Shown here one piece after another: positions 297-26,592 of a DNA stretch of 26,939 bases (position 1 is the first letter of the stretch; the number at the start of each line of letters is the position of its first letter). The position numbers and the translations under genes were made by a program. The notes beneath the pieces are model-generated. The model did no database searches. It was not told where the DNA came from and saw only the letters and a list, made by a program, of their open reading frames with translations. The stretch comes from a virus: IMG/VR virus record IMGVR_UViG_3300008999_000032, positions 1-26,939 of that record. The stretch is one strand, 5' to 3'.

Positions 297-575
297 ATGG
301 ATATATTTACTCTAATCAAAGAATTGGGGTTTCCCATAGCATCCGCCTTAATAGGCGGTTTCTTTATGTTTCTGACACTCAAGTATATAATGAATGGCGT
401 TATCGGTCAAGTGAAGTCATTACGTGGGATTGTGGGAAGTCTCGATAATCGTGTTAAGACTATGAACCATGATATGGTTCGTATGGACACTACTATGTGT
501 GTTGTTCTGGGAATAAGACCAGACCTTAACCGCATTAGTAGAGCAGATGGAAAAACTGATGCGAGGAGAGATTAA
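297..575 (+). CDS. Small membrane protein, holin/YvrJ-like
   Basis: Ninety-two residues. The N-terminus has LGFPIAS followed by a hydrophobic segment at about residues 12-33. A cytoplasmic-looking charged and partly helical tail follows. The KELGFPI opening is repeated in the gene at 1053 (KDFGFPI), so the two look like diverged copies on either side of the gene at 575. The pattern resembles short YvrJ or holin-like phage membrane proteins, but lysis function is not proven. No ribosome binding site lies before the ATG, and the late promoter box ends seven bases upstream. Its stop overlaps the next ATG by one base (TAATG). Confidence 0.65.
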   Translation: MDIFTLIKELGFPIASALIGGFFMFLTLKYIMNGVIGQVKSLRGIVGSLDNRVKTMNHDMVRMDTTMCVVLGIRPDLNRISRADGKTDARRD

Positions 576-1052: not shown

Positions 1053-1313
1053 ATGGAAACAGAATTAGTTACGCATATAAAGGACTTCGGGTTCCCGATA
1101 GTTGCCGCTGTGGGTATGCTCTACATGATCTATTTCGTGTGGAAGACCATCACAGAAGAAGTGGAAAAAAATCTGGAAGAAACTACAACTACTCTAATCG
1201 GTTTGATAGATCGTATTAGAATGCTTGATAATGATATTATCCGATTGCAACAGAAGTTGGACACAGTAATCGAAATGAGGAATCAACAGAATGAAAAAGA
1301 AGACGAAAATTAG
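1053..1313 (+). CDS. Small membrane protein, holin/YvrJ-like, second copy
   Basis: Eighty-six residues with one N-terminal membrane segment at about residues 12-30 (FGFPIVAAVGMLYMIYF). An acidic helical tail follows and is likely to form a coiled coil (LIDRIRMLDNDIIRLQQKL). The KDFGFPI opening matches KELGFPI in the protein at 297. The tails also share the pattern of a short coil after the membrane segment. Its 3' end overlaps the csgF-like gene by 23 bases, so translation of the curli-like block is probably coupled to it. Confidence 0.65.
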   Translation: METELVTHIKDFGFPIVAAVGMLYMIYFVWKTITEEVEKNLEETTTTLIGLIDRIRMLDNDIIRLQQKLDTVIEMRNQQNEKEDEN

Positions 1314-1755
1314 TCTAGGAGTCTGTGTACTGATTATCGGTATTTTATCGGTCACATCGACAGACGCTTCTCCGATTGAACACAAGTTCAAGTCTCCATC
1401 GTTTAGTGGCATCAACCAATCCAGTCACTACCTTACGATTGAGAATCAAGAGACTTCTCGGAAAGACGCAATCAAACAAGAATTGAAAGACCTTCAAGAA
1501 CAGTTGGAGAGAGATGCCGAGAACACGACTCTCGCAAAGTTTATTAGAAATGTGGAAAGTAGAATCTACTCTACATTGTCGAGACAGATTGTTGACGGTA
1601 TGTTTGGGGAGAATCCTTCTACGAGTGGTGAGTTCAACATAGAAGGAACAGGTATATCATATGTCACCGATGGTGATGTAGTGATATTAACAGTTACAGA
1701 CGAGGATGGCAGTGTTACGACTATTACTATTCCCCTTGGTGATTTTGGTATCTAG
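1291..1755 (+). CDS. csgF: CsgF-like curli assembly protein
   Basis: CsgF is the periplasmic and surface partner of the CsgG pore; its N-terminus plugs the channel and it helps anchor the curli subunit. This 154-residue protein has a signal peptide (hydrophobic core about residues 8-22, likely cleavage after DAS or nearby). FKSPSFSG (33-40) follows and corresponds to the FRNPNFGG segment of Escherichia coli CsgF. The C-terminal beta-rich part also fits the family: a polar turn, then VVILTVTDEDGSVTTITI, comparable with the end of CsgF. Length is close to the usual 138. GAGG ten bases before the ATG supports the start. It overlaps csgG by 50 bases. The order csgF-csgG with no csgE is unlike the E. 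coli operon. Confidence 0.85.
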   Translation: MKKKTKISLGVCVLIIGILSVTSTDASPIEHKFKSPSFSGINQSSHYLTIENQETSRKDAIKQELKDLQEQLERDAENTTLAKFIRNVESRIYSTLSRQIVDGMFGENPSTSGEFNIEGTGISYVTDGDVVILTVTDEDGSVTTITIPLGDFGI

Positions 1756-2524
1756 TTGTGCTTCTATTGGTGGTAGTCAATTTGAAATACCGACAAGAGA
1801 GGGTGCAACAGTTCAGTTAACTTTACTACAAGAAGAACTGATCAGTGTGGGTCAACCTAAAAGAAAACCTACAGTTGCAATATACCAATTTACAGACCAG
1901 ACAGGGCAGAAGAGACAGAACAGTAGTGGCGGGACTAGTTTTAGTTCTGCGGTTACTCAGGCACCAGACGTATATCTGATACGTGCGTTGACTCGTGCCG
2001 GTGACGGAGAATTCTTTAGGGTAGTAGACCGTCAAATAATTGACCATGTGACGAGAGAACGACAGTTAATTCGTCAAACACGTCAATCTTACGAGGGAAA
2101 TGACTCTCAGAAGCTGCCAGCGTTAAGTTTTGCTGGTATGATAATTGCAGGAGGTATAGTAGGATACGATACTTCTATTGACACAGGGGGTGCAGGCGCC
2201 AGATATCTTGGTATAGGTACTTCTCGTCAATTTAGCATAGACACGGTGACAGTCAATTTACGACTGGTGTCAGTTGCAACAGGTGAAGTTTTACTTGATG
2301 TCATCTCAAGTAAAACCATACTCTCTACTGGAATCAGTGCAGATGTATTTAGATTTATAGAACAGGGTACAGAACTGGTTGAGGTTGAATCGGGTGTTAC
2401 TCAAAACGAATCGGTCTCGATTGCGACACAACGTGCGATAGAGACTGGAGTCCTCGAACTCATTAGACTAGGAGAGTCGAAGGGGTTCTGGGAATTAATG
2501 GAGAAAGAAGAGAATGAACGTTAA
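1706..2524 (+). CDS. csgG: CsgG-like curli secretion channel lipoprotein
   Basis: CsgG is an outer-membrane lipoprotein that assembles into a nonameric beta-barrel pore for export of curli subunits. The 272 residues match the family over the full length (E. coli CsgG has 277). A lipoprotein signal ends in LVSSC with Cys18. Family segments include VAIYQFTDQTGQ (57-68), GGAGARYLGIGTSRQF (161-176), VNLRLVSVATGEVL (183-196), SKTILS (202-207), FRFIE, and AIETGVLELI near the end. Start choice is uncertain: GTG at 1712 has GAGG six bases upstream, whereas the ATG at 1706 has that GAGG immediately adjacent. Either start keeps the signal peptide. The gene begins inside csgF and overlaps the curlin-like gene by 11 bases. 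Confidence 0.95.
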   Translation: MAVLRLLLFPLVILVSSCASIGGSQFEIPTREGATVQLTLLQEELISVGQPKRKPTVAIYQFTDQTGQKRQNSSGGTSFSSAVTQAPDVYLIRALTRAGDGEFFRVVDRQIIDHVTRERQLIRQTRQSYEGNDSQKLPALSFAGMIIAGGIVGYDTSIDTGGAGARYLGIGTSRQFSIDTVTVNLRLVSVATGEVLLDVISSKTILSTGISADVFRFIEQGTELVEVESGVTQNESVSIATQRAIETGVLELIRLGESKGFWELMEKEENER

Positions 2525-3233
2525 ACAAATAGGTTTTGTGATGATGTTCTTGATAGGCACCGCATACGCTGATAACCAAATCTACATCGACCAAGTTGGT
2601 GCAGCTGCAGTTATCGAAGTTATACAGGACGGTTCAGGAAACAAAGTTGGTGGGTCTGTTACAGATGATACTAAAATGTTACTGAGTGGTGATAACATGG
2701 ATTTCAATGTCAACCTCTCTGGTGGTAGTAATAACGTGATAGGTAGTGTTATTGGTACATCCACGGTAGATATTGATGTCGATGGTTCTACAAATAACAT
2801 AGGTTTCGATGTCGATAAGGATAATGTGTATGGCGCTACAGATGGGAACTACGTAATTAATGTTACTGGTGGTAATAATGATTTAGACATAGATGTTGCT
2901 TCACTAGATACTGCAAATGATGTAGACTTTGATTTTGTATTAACTGGTGATTTCAACGAAGCTGATGTCAATATCGATGCATCAAGTTTGACTTTTGACT
3001 TGGACGTGGCGGGAGATAACAACAGTTTACTATACAATGCAAGTGGATATGATGGTCACGAATTCATATTGACTGGTACTGGTAGTTACTGGGATGTTTT
3101 TGTAAATCAAGAGTCTACATTGCAATCCGATACATTGGAGATAGACTATGATGGTTCGGGGACTAGTGACACATCCTCTACATTATGTATTACTCAGTCT
3201 GATTCTGGTACTGCCACAGGTTGCTCACCCTAA
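2514..3233 (+). CDS. Secreted curlin-like / beta-solenoid protein
   Basis: Two hundred and thirty-nine residues with a clear signal peptide (cleavage probably after GTAYA, residue 19). The mature protein opens with curlin-style spacing: IDQVG at 25-29, then IQDGSGN at 37-43. This matches the Q-x-G-x-x-N pattern of CsgA and CsgB repeats. Irregular repeats of about 20-25 residues follow, alternating D/V/I strands with turns such as GGSNN (70-74), GSTNN, GGNN, GDFNE and GDNN. This is expected of a beta-solenoid or amyloid. Two Cys residues lie near the C-terminus (225, 237). Its place right after csgG makes it the likely substrate. It is larger and far more Asp-rich than E. coli CsgA (151 residues). 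A calcium-binding adhesin is the main alternative. Confidence 0.7.
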   Translation: MNVKQIGFVMMFLIGTAYADNQIYIDQVGAAAVIEVIQDGSGNKVGGSVTDDTKMLLSGDNMDFNVNLSGGSNNVIGSVIGTSTVDIDVDGSTNNIGFDVDKDNVYGATDGNYVINVTGGNNDLDIDVASLDTANDVDFDFVLTGDFNEADVNIDASSLTFDLDVAGDNNSLLYNASGYDGHEFILTGTGSYWDVFVNQESTLQSDTLEIDYDGSGTSDTSSTLCITQSDSGTATGCSP

Positions 3234-4269
3234 TACAGATGTGGGTTCCGTAGATCGTGCAGTTGGATGGAGACAGATACTTAGAGACACAACTAAGATT
3301 GAACCCTTAACGGGGCAGGACGTAATCTCGAAGGATGATCTTCGCACAGGCGAGGGTCGCCTTCAGGTTCGTTTTGTAGATGACAGTAAATTACGAATGA
3401 CCGAACACACCCGCATTGTTATTGACAATGTGGTCTTTGATGAAGACCCAAGTAAGTCAGACTTGGCGATGACTTTCGCCCAAGGAACTGCCAGATTTAT
3501 CTCTGGACAACTGGGTAAGGTTGACAAGGAGAACATCAGACTCAAGACACCCACCGCATCTATCGGTATTCGGGGAACAGACTTCACGGTCACAGTTGAT
3601 GAGTTCGGACAAACCCTCGTGGTACTCTTGCCCGATGTGGACGGAATATCATCTGGTGAAATTATTGTTTCGACAATGACAGGTGAAGTAGTACTCAACA
3701 AACCATTCGAAGCAACAAGAACAACTGTACAAGAAACCCCGCCTAGCGCACCCGCAATCCTAGACTTGACTCTGGATATGTTGGATAATATCATGATTAT
3801 CAATCCTCCCAAGAAGAAACAAACCGAAGAAGAATTTCTCATGGATGTGAATGCATCCAAGAACATCAACCCCCTTGACCTAGACTTTCTAGACCAAGAC
3901 CTGTTAAACGAAGAAGAACTGGAACGAGACTACCTTGAGTTTGGTGAACTTGATATTGACTACTTAGATGTAGAACTACTGGAGAACCTACTGGATACTT
4001 TCGATTCTTTGGGTGAAGAACTGTTGGAAGAGAGTCCGAGTACTGGTGAACTTAACCTTGAGGGAACCGAAGAGGGATACGACACGATTACCCAAGTCGC
4101 AACTATTGTTGAGGGCGATAAGGTGTCGGTCAATAGGGAAGTAAACGATACAGTCCATATATCGGTTGACAAGAGTTCGTACACAACGATCAATATAGAA
4201 CAAGATGGAAAAGAACTAGACCCCATAAAAATTAATGGACTTGGTACAACGATAAATATAGTACAATGA
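3148..4269 (+). CDS. Periplasmic FecR-domain protein with acidic C-terminal region
   Basis: Three hundred and seventy-three residues. The start has a good ribosome binding site (GGAG, seven bases spacing) and a signal peptide at about residues 12-26. It overlaps the curlin-like gene by 86 bases in another frame. A FecR domain covers about residues 35-185: VGWRQIL, a strand with LQVRFVDDSKLRM, then LKTPTASIGIRGTDF (132-146), whose GIRGTDF is diagnostic. FecR domains transmit signals across the envelope or bind cell-surface polymers. A very acidic Leu/Asp/Glu segment follows (about 225-295). The C-terminal beta part includes PSTGELNLEGT, shared with the CsgF-like protein, and curlin-like INIEQDG. 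No cytoplasmic sigma-factor partner is seen; the next gene, a CHASE2 cyclase, is the plausible partner. Confidence 0.85.
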   Translation: MMVRGLVTHPLHYVLLSLILVLPQVAHPNTDVGSVDRAVGWRQILRDTTKIEPLTGQDVISKDDLRTGEGRLQVRFVDDSKLRMTEHTRIVIDNVVFDEDPSKSDLAMTFAQGTARFISGQLGKVDKENIRLKTPTASIGIRGTDFTVTVDEFGQTLVVLLPDVDGISSGEIIVSTMTGEVVLNKPFEATRTTVQETPPSAPAILDLTLDMLDNIMIINPPKKKQTEEEFLMDVNASKNINPLDLDFLDQDLLNEEELERDYLEFGELDIDYLDVELLENLLDTFDSLGEELLEESPSTGELNLEGTEEGYDTITQVATIVEGDKVSVNREVNDTVHISVDKSSYTTINIEQDGKELDPIKINGLGTTINIVQ

Positions 4270-6086
4270 AAACATGGCACGTACTTATTACACTCGGTCT
4301 TCTGGTTGGTCTAAGGTTACTTGACCCATTCCTACTAGAAAGCACACGACTCTCATACTTTGATTCACTACAGAGATCACAAGACGTTACGTCAAGTGAA
4401 CAGATTGTACTGGTGGATATAGACGAGAAGACCCTAGACAAATTCGGACAATACCCGATTCCTAGAGAGGTCATGGCAGATGAGATAGACAAGATTGAGA
4501 GTAGTATCATTGCGTTCAATATCTTGTTCTCAGAACCAGACAGATTTGGGGGTGATGAACACTTTGCGGACATCCTATCATGGAAACAAGCAGTAGTTGC
4601 CATTGCACCATCCAACAGAACCAACACAGACTACAGACCACCTCGTATCGGTACTGCGACATTCGGTGACAGGGATGCCGAAGACTTCAGACCAGAACTG
4701 GGTGGTATGTTGTTTGCCCAACCAATAATACATGACAATGCATTTGGATATGGTACAATATCATCCGCACAGGATGTTGATGGTATCATTCGTAGACAAC
4801 CACTATTAGAACACTTTGATGGCAGACTCTATCCCGCATTTGCGTTAGATGTACTACGAGTTGCCGCAGGGGATTCATCTTACCAGATATCCACGGATGA
4901 CTATGGTATTCAGTTCGTTCGTATCCCCAAGTTCAAACCAGTAACCACAGATGCGACTGGTAATGTCACTATCGCATACTGGAATGAGTTCAAGAGGTAC
5001 TCGTTCACGGAACTGGACACTATACCAGAAGGTTCGATAATCATCGTAGGTGCGACTTTCGAAGGTTCTAGTGTAGTATCTACTCCGATGGGTTCTATGT
5101 ATCCCCACGATGTTCAAGCGAACCTAGTCAAGACGATGATTGATGGTGTAGTCTTAAAACGACAGTCAGAATTTATTTTCTATGAGGTATTGACAACTCT
5201 TGTTTTGTGTGTTATACTCTTAGCTCTGTTAGGGAAGGCTAATATACTCGTTTCAGGCGTGTCATTCTTCGTCATAATCGGTGGTATCCTGTACATAATT
5301 TATGATTTATTTCGCACATACTTTGTGCAACTAGACCCGACATTCCCTATCATAACACTGACCCTAGTGTTCGCTCATGGTTCCTTTGTACAGTTCTATA
5401 CACAGTTCAAAGCAAAACAAATGATTAAGGGACAGTTTGGTACATACCTTTCACCAGACATGGTTGATATGTTGGCAAAAGACCCTAGTCTGATGAAACT
5501 GGGTGGTGAGAGAAAGGAGATGACCTTCTTGTTTATGGATATATGCGGGTTTACTCCGATATCTGAACACTACAAAAACAAGAACGATGCAGAGGGTTTG
5601 GTCACATTAATTAACAATTATCTTAATGAAATGACTAATATTATCCTAAATAATGGTGGCACAATCGACAAGTACATGGGTGATTGTATTATGGCATTCT
5701 GGAATGCACCACTACCATGTGAAAATCATGCCGAGATGGCAGTCAAATCCGCAATAGAGATAGAAGAGAAGACGAATGAACTTAGACGACAATATAGTGA
5801 ACAGGGTTTACCCCCCATCAATGTTGGAACTGGTATCAATACAGGCACTTGCATTGTTGGTAATATGGGTAGTGAGTCAAGGTTTGATTATTCAGTCATC
5901 GGAGACTCCGTCAACCTTGCCGCAAGACTCGAAGCAACTGCCGCTCGAGGAGACTACCTCGAATATAAAACAATCTACTCCAGTAACACAATGGAACAAC
6001 TTACCAACATTGAATCGAGATCGATAGGTCAGATCAAGGTTAAAGGTAAAGAAGAACTCATTGACATCTATACTTTTCGTTCCTAA
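4266..6086 (+). CDS. CHASE2-domain class III adenylate cyclase
   Basis: Membrane-bound sensor enzyme predicted to make cAMP. One N-terminal membrane segment (about 5-20) precedes an extracytoplasmic CHASE2 domain (about 25-295: FDSLQR, IVLVDIDEKTL, IPREV, NILFSEPD, then VDGIIRRQPLL and DGRLYPAFALDVLR). Three membrane segments (about 302-375) and a cytoplasmic cyclase domain (about 410-606) follow. Catalytic residues are intact: metal ligands D425 (FMDICGFT) and D473 (DKYMGD), adenine-selecting K469, S543 in DYSVIGD where class IIIb cyclases usually have Thr, and transition-state N550 and R554 (VNLAARLE). The ATG overlaps the fecR stop (ATGA), so the two are translationally coupled. Guanylate cyclase activity is unlikely given Lys469. 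Confidence 0.93.
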   Translation: MKTWHVLITLGLLVGLRLLDPFLLESTRLSYFDSLQRSQDVTSSEQIVLVDIDEKTLDKFGQYPIPREVMADEIDKIESSIIAFNILFSEPDRFGGDEHFADILSWKQAVVAIAPSNRTNTDYRPPRIGTATFGDRDAEDFRPELGGMLFAQPIIHDNAFGYGTISSAQDVDGIIRRQPLLEHFDGRLYPAFALDVLRVAAGDSSYQISTDDYGIQFVRIPKFKPVTTDATGNVTIAYWNEFKRYSFTELDTIPEGSIIIVGATFEGSSVVSTPMGSMYPHDVQANLVKTMIDGVVLKRQSEFIFYEVLTTLVLCVILLALLGKANILVSGVSFFVIIGGILYIIYDLFRTYFVQLDPTFPIITLTLVFAHGSFVQFYTQFKAKQMIKGQFGTYLSPDMVDMLAKDPSLMKLGGERKEMTFLFMDICGFTPISEHYKNKNDAEGLVTLINNYLNEMTNIILNNGGTIDKYMGDCIMAFWNAPLPCENHAEMAVKSAIEIEEKTNELRRQYSEQGLPPINVGTGINTGTCIVGNMGSESRFDYSVIGDSVNLAARLEATAARGDYLEYKTIYSSNTMEQLTNIESRSIGQIKVKGKEELIDIYTFRS

Positions 6087-12198: not shown

Positions 12199-13299
12199 AT
12201 GCAAAGGTTCAAACAATTTATTGGGGAAGCATATTCTTTCTTCCCCAAGACCGAAGATGAAATAACCAAGACTCTTGCGGACTGGCCACACGAAAGTGTT
12301 GCCGATGTAATTGCACTTTTCACATATCTGTCGAACAAAGGTATCGAAACACCTATCAACATCGACATGAAGAAACAGAAAGATATCAACGTTGCTCGTA
12401 CATTCAAGGCAGTAGAAGATATCGGAGACATCAAACGTAACGCTGGATTGAAGACTGTACGTATTAAGTATGGTAATGGTTCTAGTGGTAATCGTGGTGT
12501 GAATAATAGAGGTAACCTGTTTGAGACTGCGTTTGCGAAAGACCTAAACGCATGGTTCGCAGAAGGTAAGGATGCGGTATCTGATGAGGGTAACCTCAAG
12601 GCAATTATGCATCTTGATGAGTTGTATGACCTCAGTGGTTCTCAGACACTCAAGATCAATGTTGTTGGTGGTGAGAATACCAAGAGACCATTAAACTTTA
12701 AGTCTAATATCGTTTTAACCAATACTAAAGGTGTGGGTAATGATATTGGTAAGAGTGTTACTGACGTTACTCTAGTAAAGGATAATGGCGAACAAATTTA
12801 TCTCAGTCTCAAGTTCGAGACTACCACCACGTTCTTCAACGTAGGTGTTCGTACCAAGTTGACTCCCAAAGAAATCAAGGAAGGTAAGATTCAGAACGCT
12901 GACGGTCTGAAGTTGTTGCAGTTATTCGGTATTGACAACGAGAGATTCTGTGGTATATTCAATGACGATGTTAAGACCCAAGGTGGTAAAGTTGTTACCA
13001 GACCAAACCCAATGGCGATGAAGATGTTACTTGAAAGTGGTATCGGTCATGGTTATCATGTTATCCATAAGATGAAGAAGAACGTTTATTCCAAGAAGAT
13101 GGATGTTGCTGCGATGCAGGCTGCTGCTAAGGTAGGAACTTGTACGGTTCACTATGGTGGTAAGACTGGTCGTGGTAAACGTATTGACATGGAACTCAGT
13201 TCACCGTACTATAGATTCAAACTAAACATACGAGACACTCAAGGCAAGGATGGTTATCCCACACGAATGATGTGTGACTTCACCACCTTGAAATTCTAA
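12199..13299 (+). CDS. Putative head-packaged protein, possible PD-(D/E)xK fold
   Basis: Three hundred and sixty-six residues. The first ten residues, MQRFKQFIGE, end in IxE and resemble the capsid-targeting leader of T4 internal proteins, which gp21 cleaves after (L/I)xE. The centre has RGNLFETAFAKDL (104-116, Glu109) and KSVTDVTLV (185-193, Asp189), followed by QIYLSLKFE (199-207, Lys205). This order and spacing fit a PD-(D/E)xK nuclease core with Ser in the usual Asp/Glu position, but it is only a pattern. I recall similar uncharacterised proteins in marine T4-like phages with the same FFNVGVRTKLTP segment. It abuts the ligase-like gene (TAATG). Confidence 0.6.
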   Translation: MQRFKQFIGEAYSFFPKTEDEITKTLADWPHESVADVIALFTYLSNKGIETPINIDMKKQKDINVARTFKAVEDIGDIKRNAGLKTVRIKYGNGSSGNRGVNNRGNLFETAFAKDLNAWFAEGKDAVSDEGNLKAIMHLDELYDLSGSQTLKINVVGGENTKRPLNFKSNIVLTNTKGVGNDIGKSVTDVTLVKDNGEQIYLSLKFETTTTFFNVGVRTKLTPKEIKEGKIQNADGLKLLQLFGIDNERFCGIFNDDVKTQGGKVVTRPNPMAMKMLLESGIGHGYHVIHKMKKNVYSKKMDVAAMQAAAKVGTCTVHYGGKTGRGKRIDMELSSPYYRFKLNIRDTQGKDGYPTRMMCDFTTLKF

Positions 13300-24603: not shown

Positions 24604-26592
24604 ATGACCCTCAAGATTGATAAGAAGAAAGATTCCCTACTCGCTGAATATGCAGTAGGTATGTTAAAAGATTTTTATTTGAATGATTATGAAAAGAGTC
24701 CACAAGAGGGTTTCGCAAGAGCTGCAAAAGCATGGTCTAAGTACCGAGATGAAATGGATGACGAGTTAGCACAACGTCTGTATGACTACGTGTCTAATAA
24801 GTGGTTCATGTTCGCCTCCCCTGTTCTGTCAAATGCACCCAATGGACATGATGCAAAGAACAAAGGTATGCCTATCTCTTGTTTCCTCACATACGTACCC
24901 GACAGTCTTGAAGGACTGATCAGTCACTCATCTGAATTACGATGGTTGTCTGTAATGGGTGGTGGTGTCGGTGGACACTGGTCTGACGTAAGAACTGTAT
25001 CAGACATTGCGCCTGGCCCGATGCCATTCCTACACACTGTTGATGCAGATATGATTGCATATCGACAGGGTAAGACTCGTAAGGGTTCTTATGCCGCTTA
25101 CATGGATATCTCTCACCCAGATATCATTGAGTTCCTCAATATGCGTATCCCGACAGGTGATGTACAACGTAAAGCATTGAACCTACACAACGCTATCAAT
25201 GTCTCGGACGAGTTTATGGAAGCAGTAAAACAAGGAAATTCTTTTGATCTTCGTGACCCTAAAGATGGTAGTGTTAAAGATAGTACTGATGCACGTAAAC
25301 TATGGGAACGTATTCTAGAGACACGATTCCGCACAGGTGAACCTTACCTGAACTTCATTGATACCGCAAATCGTGATTTACCACAACCACTACAAGATAA
25401 AGGATTAAAGATTCATGGTTCCAATTTATGTAACGAGATTCATCTACCCACAGATGCAGATCGCACTGCCGTATGTTGCCTATCTTCTCTCAATCTAGAG
25501 TACTATGACGAGTGGAAAGACACTTCTATTGTACGTGACATTGTACGAATGCTCGATAATGTATTAGAGTACTTCATTGACAATGCACCCGACACTATCT
25601 CTCGTGCAAGGTATTCTGCACAACGTGAGAGAAGTATTGGACTAGGTGCAATGGGTTTCCATTCCTTGTTGCAGAAACATGGAGTTGCATGGGAGTCAGA
25701 AGCTGCACGAGAGATCAACCGAACTGTATTCCAACATATCAATGAGGAAGCAGTCGCAGAAACCAAACTACTTGCCGAAGAACGTGGTGAGTATCCTGAT
25801 GGTGAGGGGAGTGGACGAAGAAACTCTCACTTGATGGCAATCGCACCAAACGCATCATCTGGTGTTATTTTGAGTACAAGTCCTTCTATCGAACCATTGA
25901 AGGCAAATGCATATACTCACCGCACACGTGCTGGTTCTTTCCTAGTGAAGAACAAGTACTTGACTCAGTTACTTGATGATAAAGATGAGAACAACGAGTC
26001 CAACTGGACATCAATCATTACCAACAAAGGTTCGGTACAACATTTACCATTCTTCACAGAAGGTGAAAAGGCTGTATTCAGAACTGCGGATGAACTTGAC
26101 CAAACATGGGTTGTACAACACGCTGCAGAAAGACAACCATTTATATGTCAAGGTCAGTCAGTTAATTTATTCTTCCCTGCTGGTGCAGCGAAGTCTTATG
26201 TGAACAAGGTACACTTAAAGGCATGGAAGGATGGACTTAAAGGTCTATACTATCTACGCACCGAGGCGAAACAACGTGCCGAGAATGTATCGGAGAAGGT
26301 AGAAAGGGTCGCACTACAAGGTGACACCCGATCAATCGTCTATACTAAAGGTAACTGTCCATTCTGTGCAATGGCGATGGAAGAACTCAAGTTGAGAGGA
26401 ATACCATTCGACAAGGTTGATCTTGCAGATATCGGTAAGACCGCAAGAGAAGTGACAGGTCGAGATGTTAAGACAGTACCACAAATTTATATTGAGGGTG
26501 AGTATGTAGGTGGGTATGAGGATTTGATGGAACACCTAAACAAACCAATAGAAATAGAAGAGTCCGATGAATGTCGGGCTTGCGAAGGATAA
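24604..26592 (+). CDS. nrdA: Ribonucleotide reductase large subunit with glutaredoxin domain
   Basis: Class I ribonucleotide reductase alpha subunit, which makes deoxyribonucleotides for phage DNA synthesis. The 662 residues lack the N-terminal ATP-cone. Core features are MPISCFL (Cys93), SNLCNEIHLP (274-282, radical Cys276 and Glu278), AVCCLSSLNL (289-298, partner Cys), MAIAPNASSG (411-420) and the tyrosines GLYYLRTEA (547-555). A glutaredoxin domain (about 576-648) is inserted with NCPFCAM (Cys585, Cys588), VKTVPQIYI and GGYEDL. The last residues DECRACEG carry a Cys pair (657, 660) like the usual redox-shuttle tail, so the glutaredoxin sits between core and tail. nrdB follows nine bases after the stop. 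Confidence 0.95.
   Translation: MTLKIDKKKDSLLAEYAVGMLKDFYLNDYEKSPQEGFARAAKAWSKYRDEMDDELAQRLYDYVSNKWFMFASPVLSNAPNGHDAKNKGMPISCFLTYVPDSLEGLISHSSELRWLSVMGGGVGGHWSDVRTVSDIAPGPMPFLHTVDADMIAYRQGKTRKGSYAAYMDISHPDIIEFLNMRIPTGDVQRKALNLHNAINVSDEFMEAVKQGNSFDLRDPKDGSVKDSTDARKLWERILETRFRTGEPYLNFIDTANRDLPQPLQDKGLKIHGSNLCNEIHLPTDADRTAVCCLSSLNLEYYDEWKDTSIVRDIVRMLDNVLEYFIDNAPDTISRARYSAQRERSIGLGAMGFHSLLQKHGVAWESEAAREINRTVFQHINEEAVAETKLLAEERGEYPDGEGSGRRNSHLMAIAPNASSGVILSTSPSIEPLKANAYTHRTRAGSFLVKNKYLTQLLDDKDENNESNWTSIITNKGSVQHLPFFTEGEKAVFRTADELDQTWVVQHAAERQPFICQGQSVNLFFPAGAAKSYVNKVHLKAWKDGLKGLYYLRTEAKQRAENVSEKVERVALQGDTRSIVYTKGNCPFCAMAMEELKLRGIPFDKVDLADIGKTAREVTGRDVKTVPQIYIEGEYVGGYEDLMEHLNKPIEIEESDECRACEG

Follow-up and report, generated by a model that had tools for sequence, protein, structure and literature searches.

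The locus raises the question of why a phage encodes a membrane-bound nucleotidyl cyclase with its own sensor domain, and to what this enzyme is coupled. The window, as the whole stretch of DNA analysed is called here, is a virus contig of 26,939 bases. At positions 1291–6086 it carries CsgF, CsgG, curlin, FecR and cyclase genes in this order on one strand, the arrangement of the pelagiphage curli (T8SS) module, and the cyclase is the last gene of this five-gene curli (type VIII secretion) module. An earlier note on the same DNA had described the cyclase gene correctly, while the module around it was absent from that description. The features of the locus are given below; the 83 phage sources mentioned there are the best 80 of at least 598 cyclase relatives detected in a scan of viral contigs, together with HTVC008M, Melnitz and the window (L001, a duplicate copy of the window, was dropped).

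297–575, plus strand: second small one-helix membrane protein, with a start similar to that of the 1053–1313 product; kept in 53 of 83 phage sources
1053–1313, plus strand: small one-helix membrane protein; kept in 53 of 83 phage sources
1291–1755, plus strand: CsgF (Pfam, E 2.1e-17)
1706–2524, plus strand: CsgG, curli outer-membrane pore (Pfam, E 5.7e-48; lipobox-type cysteine C18)
2514–3233, plus strand: curlin-repeat-like protein, in the position where HTVC008M and Melnitz have proteins annotated curlin-associated
3148–4269, plus strand: FecR-domain protein (FecR at residues 63–158, Pfam E 1.3e-11; signal-like N-terminus; curlin-like terminal strand TTINIVQ)
4266–6086, plus strand: CHASE2 class III (IIIb-type) nucleotidyl cyclase of 606 aa, probable adenylyl cyclase (Pfam, residues, structure model)

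The Pfam search gave no match for the curlin-repeat-like protein at 2514–3233. The products of the two small genes preceding csgF, at 297–575 and 1053–1313, both start with a GFPI-type segment. Between these genes lies an ORF (575–1051) encoding 158 aa with a C-terminal membrane helix, which was found in only three of the 83 phage sources and is perhaps a recent insertion. No histidine kinase was detected before the module in ORFs 297–575, 575–1051 and 1053–1313 (Pfam, E 0.1; NCBIfam, E 0.01; positions 1 onward), whereas in podoviruses, according to the accessible text of PMC9599517, one or two histidine kinases precede the module; compared with that paper's description, short one-helix proteins take this place in the window.

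The carrier of the window cyclase is, judging by gene content, a marine T4-like phage. Phage-type genes neighbour the module; the large subunit of ribonucleotide reductase, encoded at 24604–26592, is 77.6% identical to that of Phage C48C1 (Kyanoviridae); and a T4-type capsid gene is present in another contig (L003), the cyclase of which is 92% identical to that of the window. On these grounds the contig is assigned to a phage, in line with the phage-encoded cyclase of the earlier note. The C-terminal end of the reductase gave a thioredoxin-like match.

Phage modules combining FecR, cyclase and curli genes have already been described in related phages, and the window is a further example. In the accessible text of PMC9599517, FecR and adenylate cyclase are reported in the curli module of pelagiphages of Podoviridae and Myoviridae, with CsgF, CsgG, curlin, FecR and adenylate cyclase ordered as in the window; the module is described as derived from an alphaproteobacterium, and FecR and cyclase as lying outside canonical curli clusters and as sometimes absent from the phage module. 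The term CHASE2 has no occurrences in the main text of that paper. Curli genes are also reported in pelagimyophages (PMC7029224) and in Melnitz (PMC9004378), the word cyclase being absent from the main text of the former and from the accessible text of the latter, and in the accessible parts of all three papers the purpose of phage curli modules is left open.

In a tblastn search the window cyclase matched nine phage records; for six (two HTVC008M entries and four Melnitz isolates) the match covered 80% or more of the query. In GenBank, the same module order, with an adenylate/guanylyl or adenylate/guanylate cyclase as the last gene, is annotated in Pelagibacter phage HTVC008M (AGE60353.1) and methylophage Melnitz-3 (QZI95054.1). 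The identity of AGE60353.1 to the window cyclase is 44% overall, 68.8% in the cyclase domain and 35.6% in CHASE2.

The cyclase ORF contains no internal stop, and its ATG shares four bases with the end of the upstream FecR-domain gene (stop at 4269). Residues 10–318 belong to the CHASE2 domain (Pfam, E 5.9e-38, above the curated cut-off) and residues 417–598 to Guanylate_cyc (Pfam, E 7.9e-20; 71.7 bits against a curated cut-off of 21.9). The catalytic set consists of D425, K469, D473, S543, N550 and R554, that is, the two metal Asp, the Lys and Ser/Thr pair, the Asn and the Arg by which class IIIb is defined. Hydropathy indicates one N-terminal transmembrane helix and three more after CHASE2, in accordance with the AlphaFold2 model (mean pLDDT 87.2), in which helices span residues 3–19, 303–324, 327–352 and 359–394; the lowest-confidence stretch of the modelled catalytic domain is residues 474–478. 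The modelled protein has the layout of a CHASE2 receptor-cyclase, with an N-terminal helix, a CHASE2 domain presumably on the periplasmic side, three helices and a catalytic domain presumably in the cytoplasm. The complete CHASE2 class IIIb-like cyclase previously proposed here, with these six residues at these positions and with intact CHASE2 and membrane segments, is thereby confirmed, and its product is an intact, complete enzyme that is probably active.

The nearest solved catalytic domain by sequence is that of the P. aeruginosa adenylyl cyclase CyaB (PDB 3r5g; phmmer E 4.2e-38), which also ranks with the best structural hits (Foldseek E 7.2e-13, with 41% identity over the catalytic domain in the Foldseek alignment); chain 3r5g comprises the catalytic domain only, and at the class IIIb position the alignment places Thr of CyaB against Ser543 of the window. 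Lys469 is aligned opposite the Glu of the guanylyl cyclase Cya2 (chain 2w01). A Lys with a Ser/Thr substrate pair is what we take to mark the ATP type, subclass IIIb of class III, and since Lys469 stands opposite that Glu, the Lys/Ser pair is of the ATP type. The predicted product of the window cyclase is most likely cAMP.

Of 133 distinct cyclase ORFs from phages, 128 have the full set D-K-D-(S/T)-N-R (104 with Ser and 24 with Thr), as do all 80 of the best bacterial loci (67 with Ser). In four of the remaining five phage ORFs, columns are missing at contig ends, and the fifth is Melnitz. Ser is the commonest residue at position 543 in relatives of both kinds, so that Ser543 is neither a special feature nor, as had been supposed, a departure from a usual Thr.

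The at least 598 cyclase relatives indicate that cyclase-bearing curli modules are widespread among viral contigs. In every phage source where the sequence before the cyclase reaches 4,200 bases or more (53 of 53), the genes are ordered CsgF–CsgG–curlin–FecR–cyclase. All five module genes are present in 54 of the 83 sources, and the remaining 29 all have less than 4,000 bases before the cyclase. Examined from the other side, curlin, FecR and cyclase genes accompany CsgG in 42 of 42 phage loci with 6 kb downstream (80 loci, of which 38 were too short). Both the cyclase-side and the CsgG-side sets consist of nearest relatives, and rarer arrangements may occur farther off. With so many viral relatives and a published phage cluster (accessible text of PMC9599517), the earlier note overstates the novelty in calling this an "unusual" way to alter host signalling, itself a predicted effect. 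Frameshifts in most phage copies, the result that was to speak against the gene, were looked for: one open frame extends over the available length in 83 of 83 sources, and one clearly broken copy (L290) occurs in the second phage set.

The dN/dS values between the window and its eleven nearest copies are 0.031–0.062 for the cyclase domain (six pairs with computable dS) and 0.037–0.124 for CHASE2 (seven pairs with computable dS); in the remaining pairs synonymous changes are saturated. Within the phage protein the cyclase domain changes most slowly, and its low dN/dS suggests that the enzyme is kept active. The Pfam domains, the catalytic residues and dN/dS rule out a chance ORF or a pseudogene at 4266–6086.

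In bacteria, FecR and cyclase genes do occur in chromosomal curli clusters, rarely. Among the 80 bacterial loci nearest by cyclase, CsgG is present in one, the contig L084 of a Caulobacteraceae MAG, where the order is CsgF–CsgG–curlin–curlin–FecR–cyclase. This module lies between glycosyltransferase genes and a group made up of a PycTM-family gene, a peptidase and a TonB-dependent receptor; G+C content is about 65% outside and falls to 52–55% at the module. Among 58 bacterial CsgF loci, taken from partly overlapping samples of 299, 385 and 398 genomes, one (L233) contains FecR and cyclase, L084 being the starting example outside the 58; of two weak CsgF matches, G481 (below the cut-off) was left out and G605 was included. 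The L233 module is the same as that of L084; its cyclase is 93% identical to the L084 cyclase, and its flanks differ. Among them is a metallophosphoesterase gene, placed ahead of CsgF, whose product is similar to cyclic-nucleotide phosphodiesterases (NCBIfam matches that stay under the curated cut-offs). PMC9599517, seen here in part of its text, may itself already show FecR and cyclase in bacterial curli clusters.

The FecR protein was modelled with a mean pLDDT of 72.3. The model contains a separate beta-rich C-terminal domain at residues ~301–373, and it shares its fold with the cell-surface signalling domain of PupR (Z 15.1; 137 residues at an rmsd of 2.7 A); for the C-terminal domain, matches among the solved structures compared are weak (Z under 4). 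An alignment of 38 FecR proteins has a mean column identity of 46%, yet Q373 never varies and I369 and I371 hardly do. The terminal strand of the phage FecR proteins resembles what we take, from general knowledge of curlin repeats, to be the last strand of such a repeat. This end was described by the pattern [IVL]x[IVL]xQ with no more than four residues after it, which was chosen after viewing the sequences. New here, against the literature searched and as judged by this pattern, is that a curlin-like strand ends every distinct complete FecR protein from phages (51 of 51), proteins which are mutually related and do not represent 51 independent events, and is absent from FecR-domain ORFs near non-curli bacterial cyclases (0 of 25). 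Of the 91 phage curlins, 47 end in the same pattern, as do 2 of 657 further complete ORFs of at least 150 aa from phage loci and none of 49 CsgF, 53 CsgG and 68 cyclase proteins; both bacterial curli-linked FecR proteins (L084 and L233) have a similar end. Comparison of the FecR tail with the curlin profile gave no homology (probability 9%), so it is a short motif, and no relationship at the profile level, that supports the curlin-like end. The idea that FecR ends in a CsgF-like domain was rejected, the profile comparison giving a probability of only 2.5%.

The reading that we favour, and consider somewhat probable, is that an active CHASE2 adenylyl cyclase serves as the signalling output of the phage curli module, paired with FecR, and that its cAMP acts on a host receptor. 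The secreted FecR protein would act as a sensor in the periplasm or at the outer membrane, probably of the export state of CsgG and curlin, and would pass the signal to the CHASE2 domain, FecR and the cyclase acting as a pair. The signal would then cross the membrane helices to a cytoplasmic cyclase dimer, which would convert ATP to cAMP in the infected cell. Several results count against parts of this reading. A second curlin gene follows FecR in 35 of 54 complete phage modules, so that FecR and cyclase genes are not always adjacent. A rare rearrangement is seen in one locus (L291:3157–4905), where the cyclase is encoded on the other strand from CsgG, curlin and FecR. The cNMP_binding domain (PF00027) had no match in any of the 24 phage records searched, of which two are complete genomes; the reader of cAMP, if any, would therefore belong to the host. 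The receptor and the host of the window contig are the weakest links of the cAMP reading.

FecR and CHASE2 are both periplasmic signalling domains, and comparable partnerships are reported in bacteria, in the accessible text of the papers concerned: clusters of a CHASE2 cyclase, a FecR protein and a cAMP phosphodiesterase in Campylobacterota (PMC9239204), and, in a biofilm operon, a CHASE2 histidine kinase together with a FecR protein (PMC5192318). The S. meliloti CHASE2 cyclases CyaD1, CyaD2 and CyaK respond to a signal via the outer-membrane protein NsrA and act via the CRP-family regulator Clr (PMC13001267, accessible text). By description, not by sequence, they resemble the window system in combining a CHASE2 sensor with a cyclase and in the relay of the signal by an outer-membrane protein, whereas their output passes through Clr and the window system has no known receptor.

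The intact cyclase and the curlin-like FecR end lead to a testable proposal, in which the cyclase serves as read-out for the export system. A bolder form of it is a self-monitoring amyloid exporter, in which the C-terminal strand of FecR would mimic a curlin repeat, dock on CsgG or the fibre and report the state of export or of the fibre to the CHASE2 cyclase, and so to cAMP. We regard this form as unlikely; if true, the phage would sense its own extracellular product and feed back to the host via cAMP.

An active cyclase could also be unrelated to curli, raising host cAMP and thereby resetting metabolism or transcription, if the block had been captured together from an alphaproteobacterium. 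This would suit the bacterial CHASE2 relatives, which mostly occur without curli, as the single CsgG-containing locus among the 80 nearest shows. It would also suit the phylogeny (FastTree, midpoint root, 148 tips), in which the viral cyclases (68 of 68) fall into a single clade (support 1.0), joined by the two chromosomal modules L084 and L233 as sister in a clade of 70 (support 1.0); the tree agrees with the alphaproteobacterial origin published in PMC9599517, as given in its accessible text. However, the order of the block is kept in every testable phage locus and its members in all 42 CsgG loci, and the FecR proteins have a curlin-like end, which makes this explanation rather unlikely.

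Melnitz bears on a further alternative, in which the protein is conserved as a sensor or scaffold and catalysis no longer matters. Compared with HTVC008M, it has 58.7% identity in CHASE2 and only 36.6% in the cyclase domain, and the Melnitz cyclase (L083:9917–11968) has Asp at the substrate position 543 and Ser at position 550 in place of the transition-state Asn. Most likely, as far as these comparisons indicate, Melnitz underwent an exchange of its catalytic domain, which suggests that the sensor part suits the module of the phage and that the output part would be replaceable. The broken copy L290 also counts in favour of the sensor or scaffold alternative, its cyclase extending over three frames and FecR over two with CsgF, CsgG and curlin open; here decay and an assembly error cannot be told apart. 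The retention of all six residues in nearly all distinct phage ORFs and the slow change of the cyclase domain argue against loss of catalysis, and this alternative is very unlikely.

Highly improbable is a role in which the nucleotide would interfere with or trigger a Pycsar-like cyclic-nucleotide defence of the host, as a decoy or a phage-borne exclusion system: PADLOC PycC models do match the catalytic domain (E 2.4e-25), which is counted against the curli-output reading, and in L084 a PycTM-family (Pycsar effector) gene directly follows the cyclase (12482–13075; PF18967 E 8.8e-25, with a PADLOC match), but the Lys/Ser substrate residues are those of adenylyl cyclases, five small nearby ORFs and FecR gave no PADLOC match that would represent an adjoining Pyc effector, and the explanation was demoted because PycTM (PF18967) is absent from ten related phage records and no ORF like the L084 PycTM protein is present in the sister module L233 (19.5 kb examined).

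Near bacterial CHASE2 cyclases in four other loci (L089, L133, L134 and L149), the FecR domain is located in ORFs of 2046–2300 aa on the opposite strand, which perhaps encode surface adhesins.
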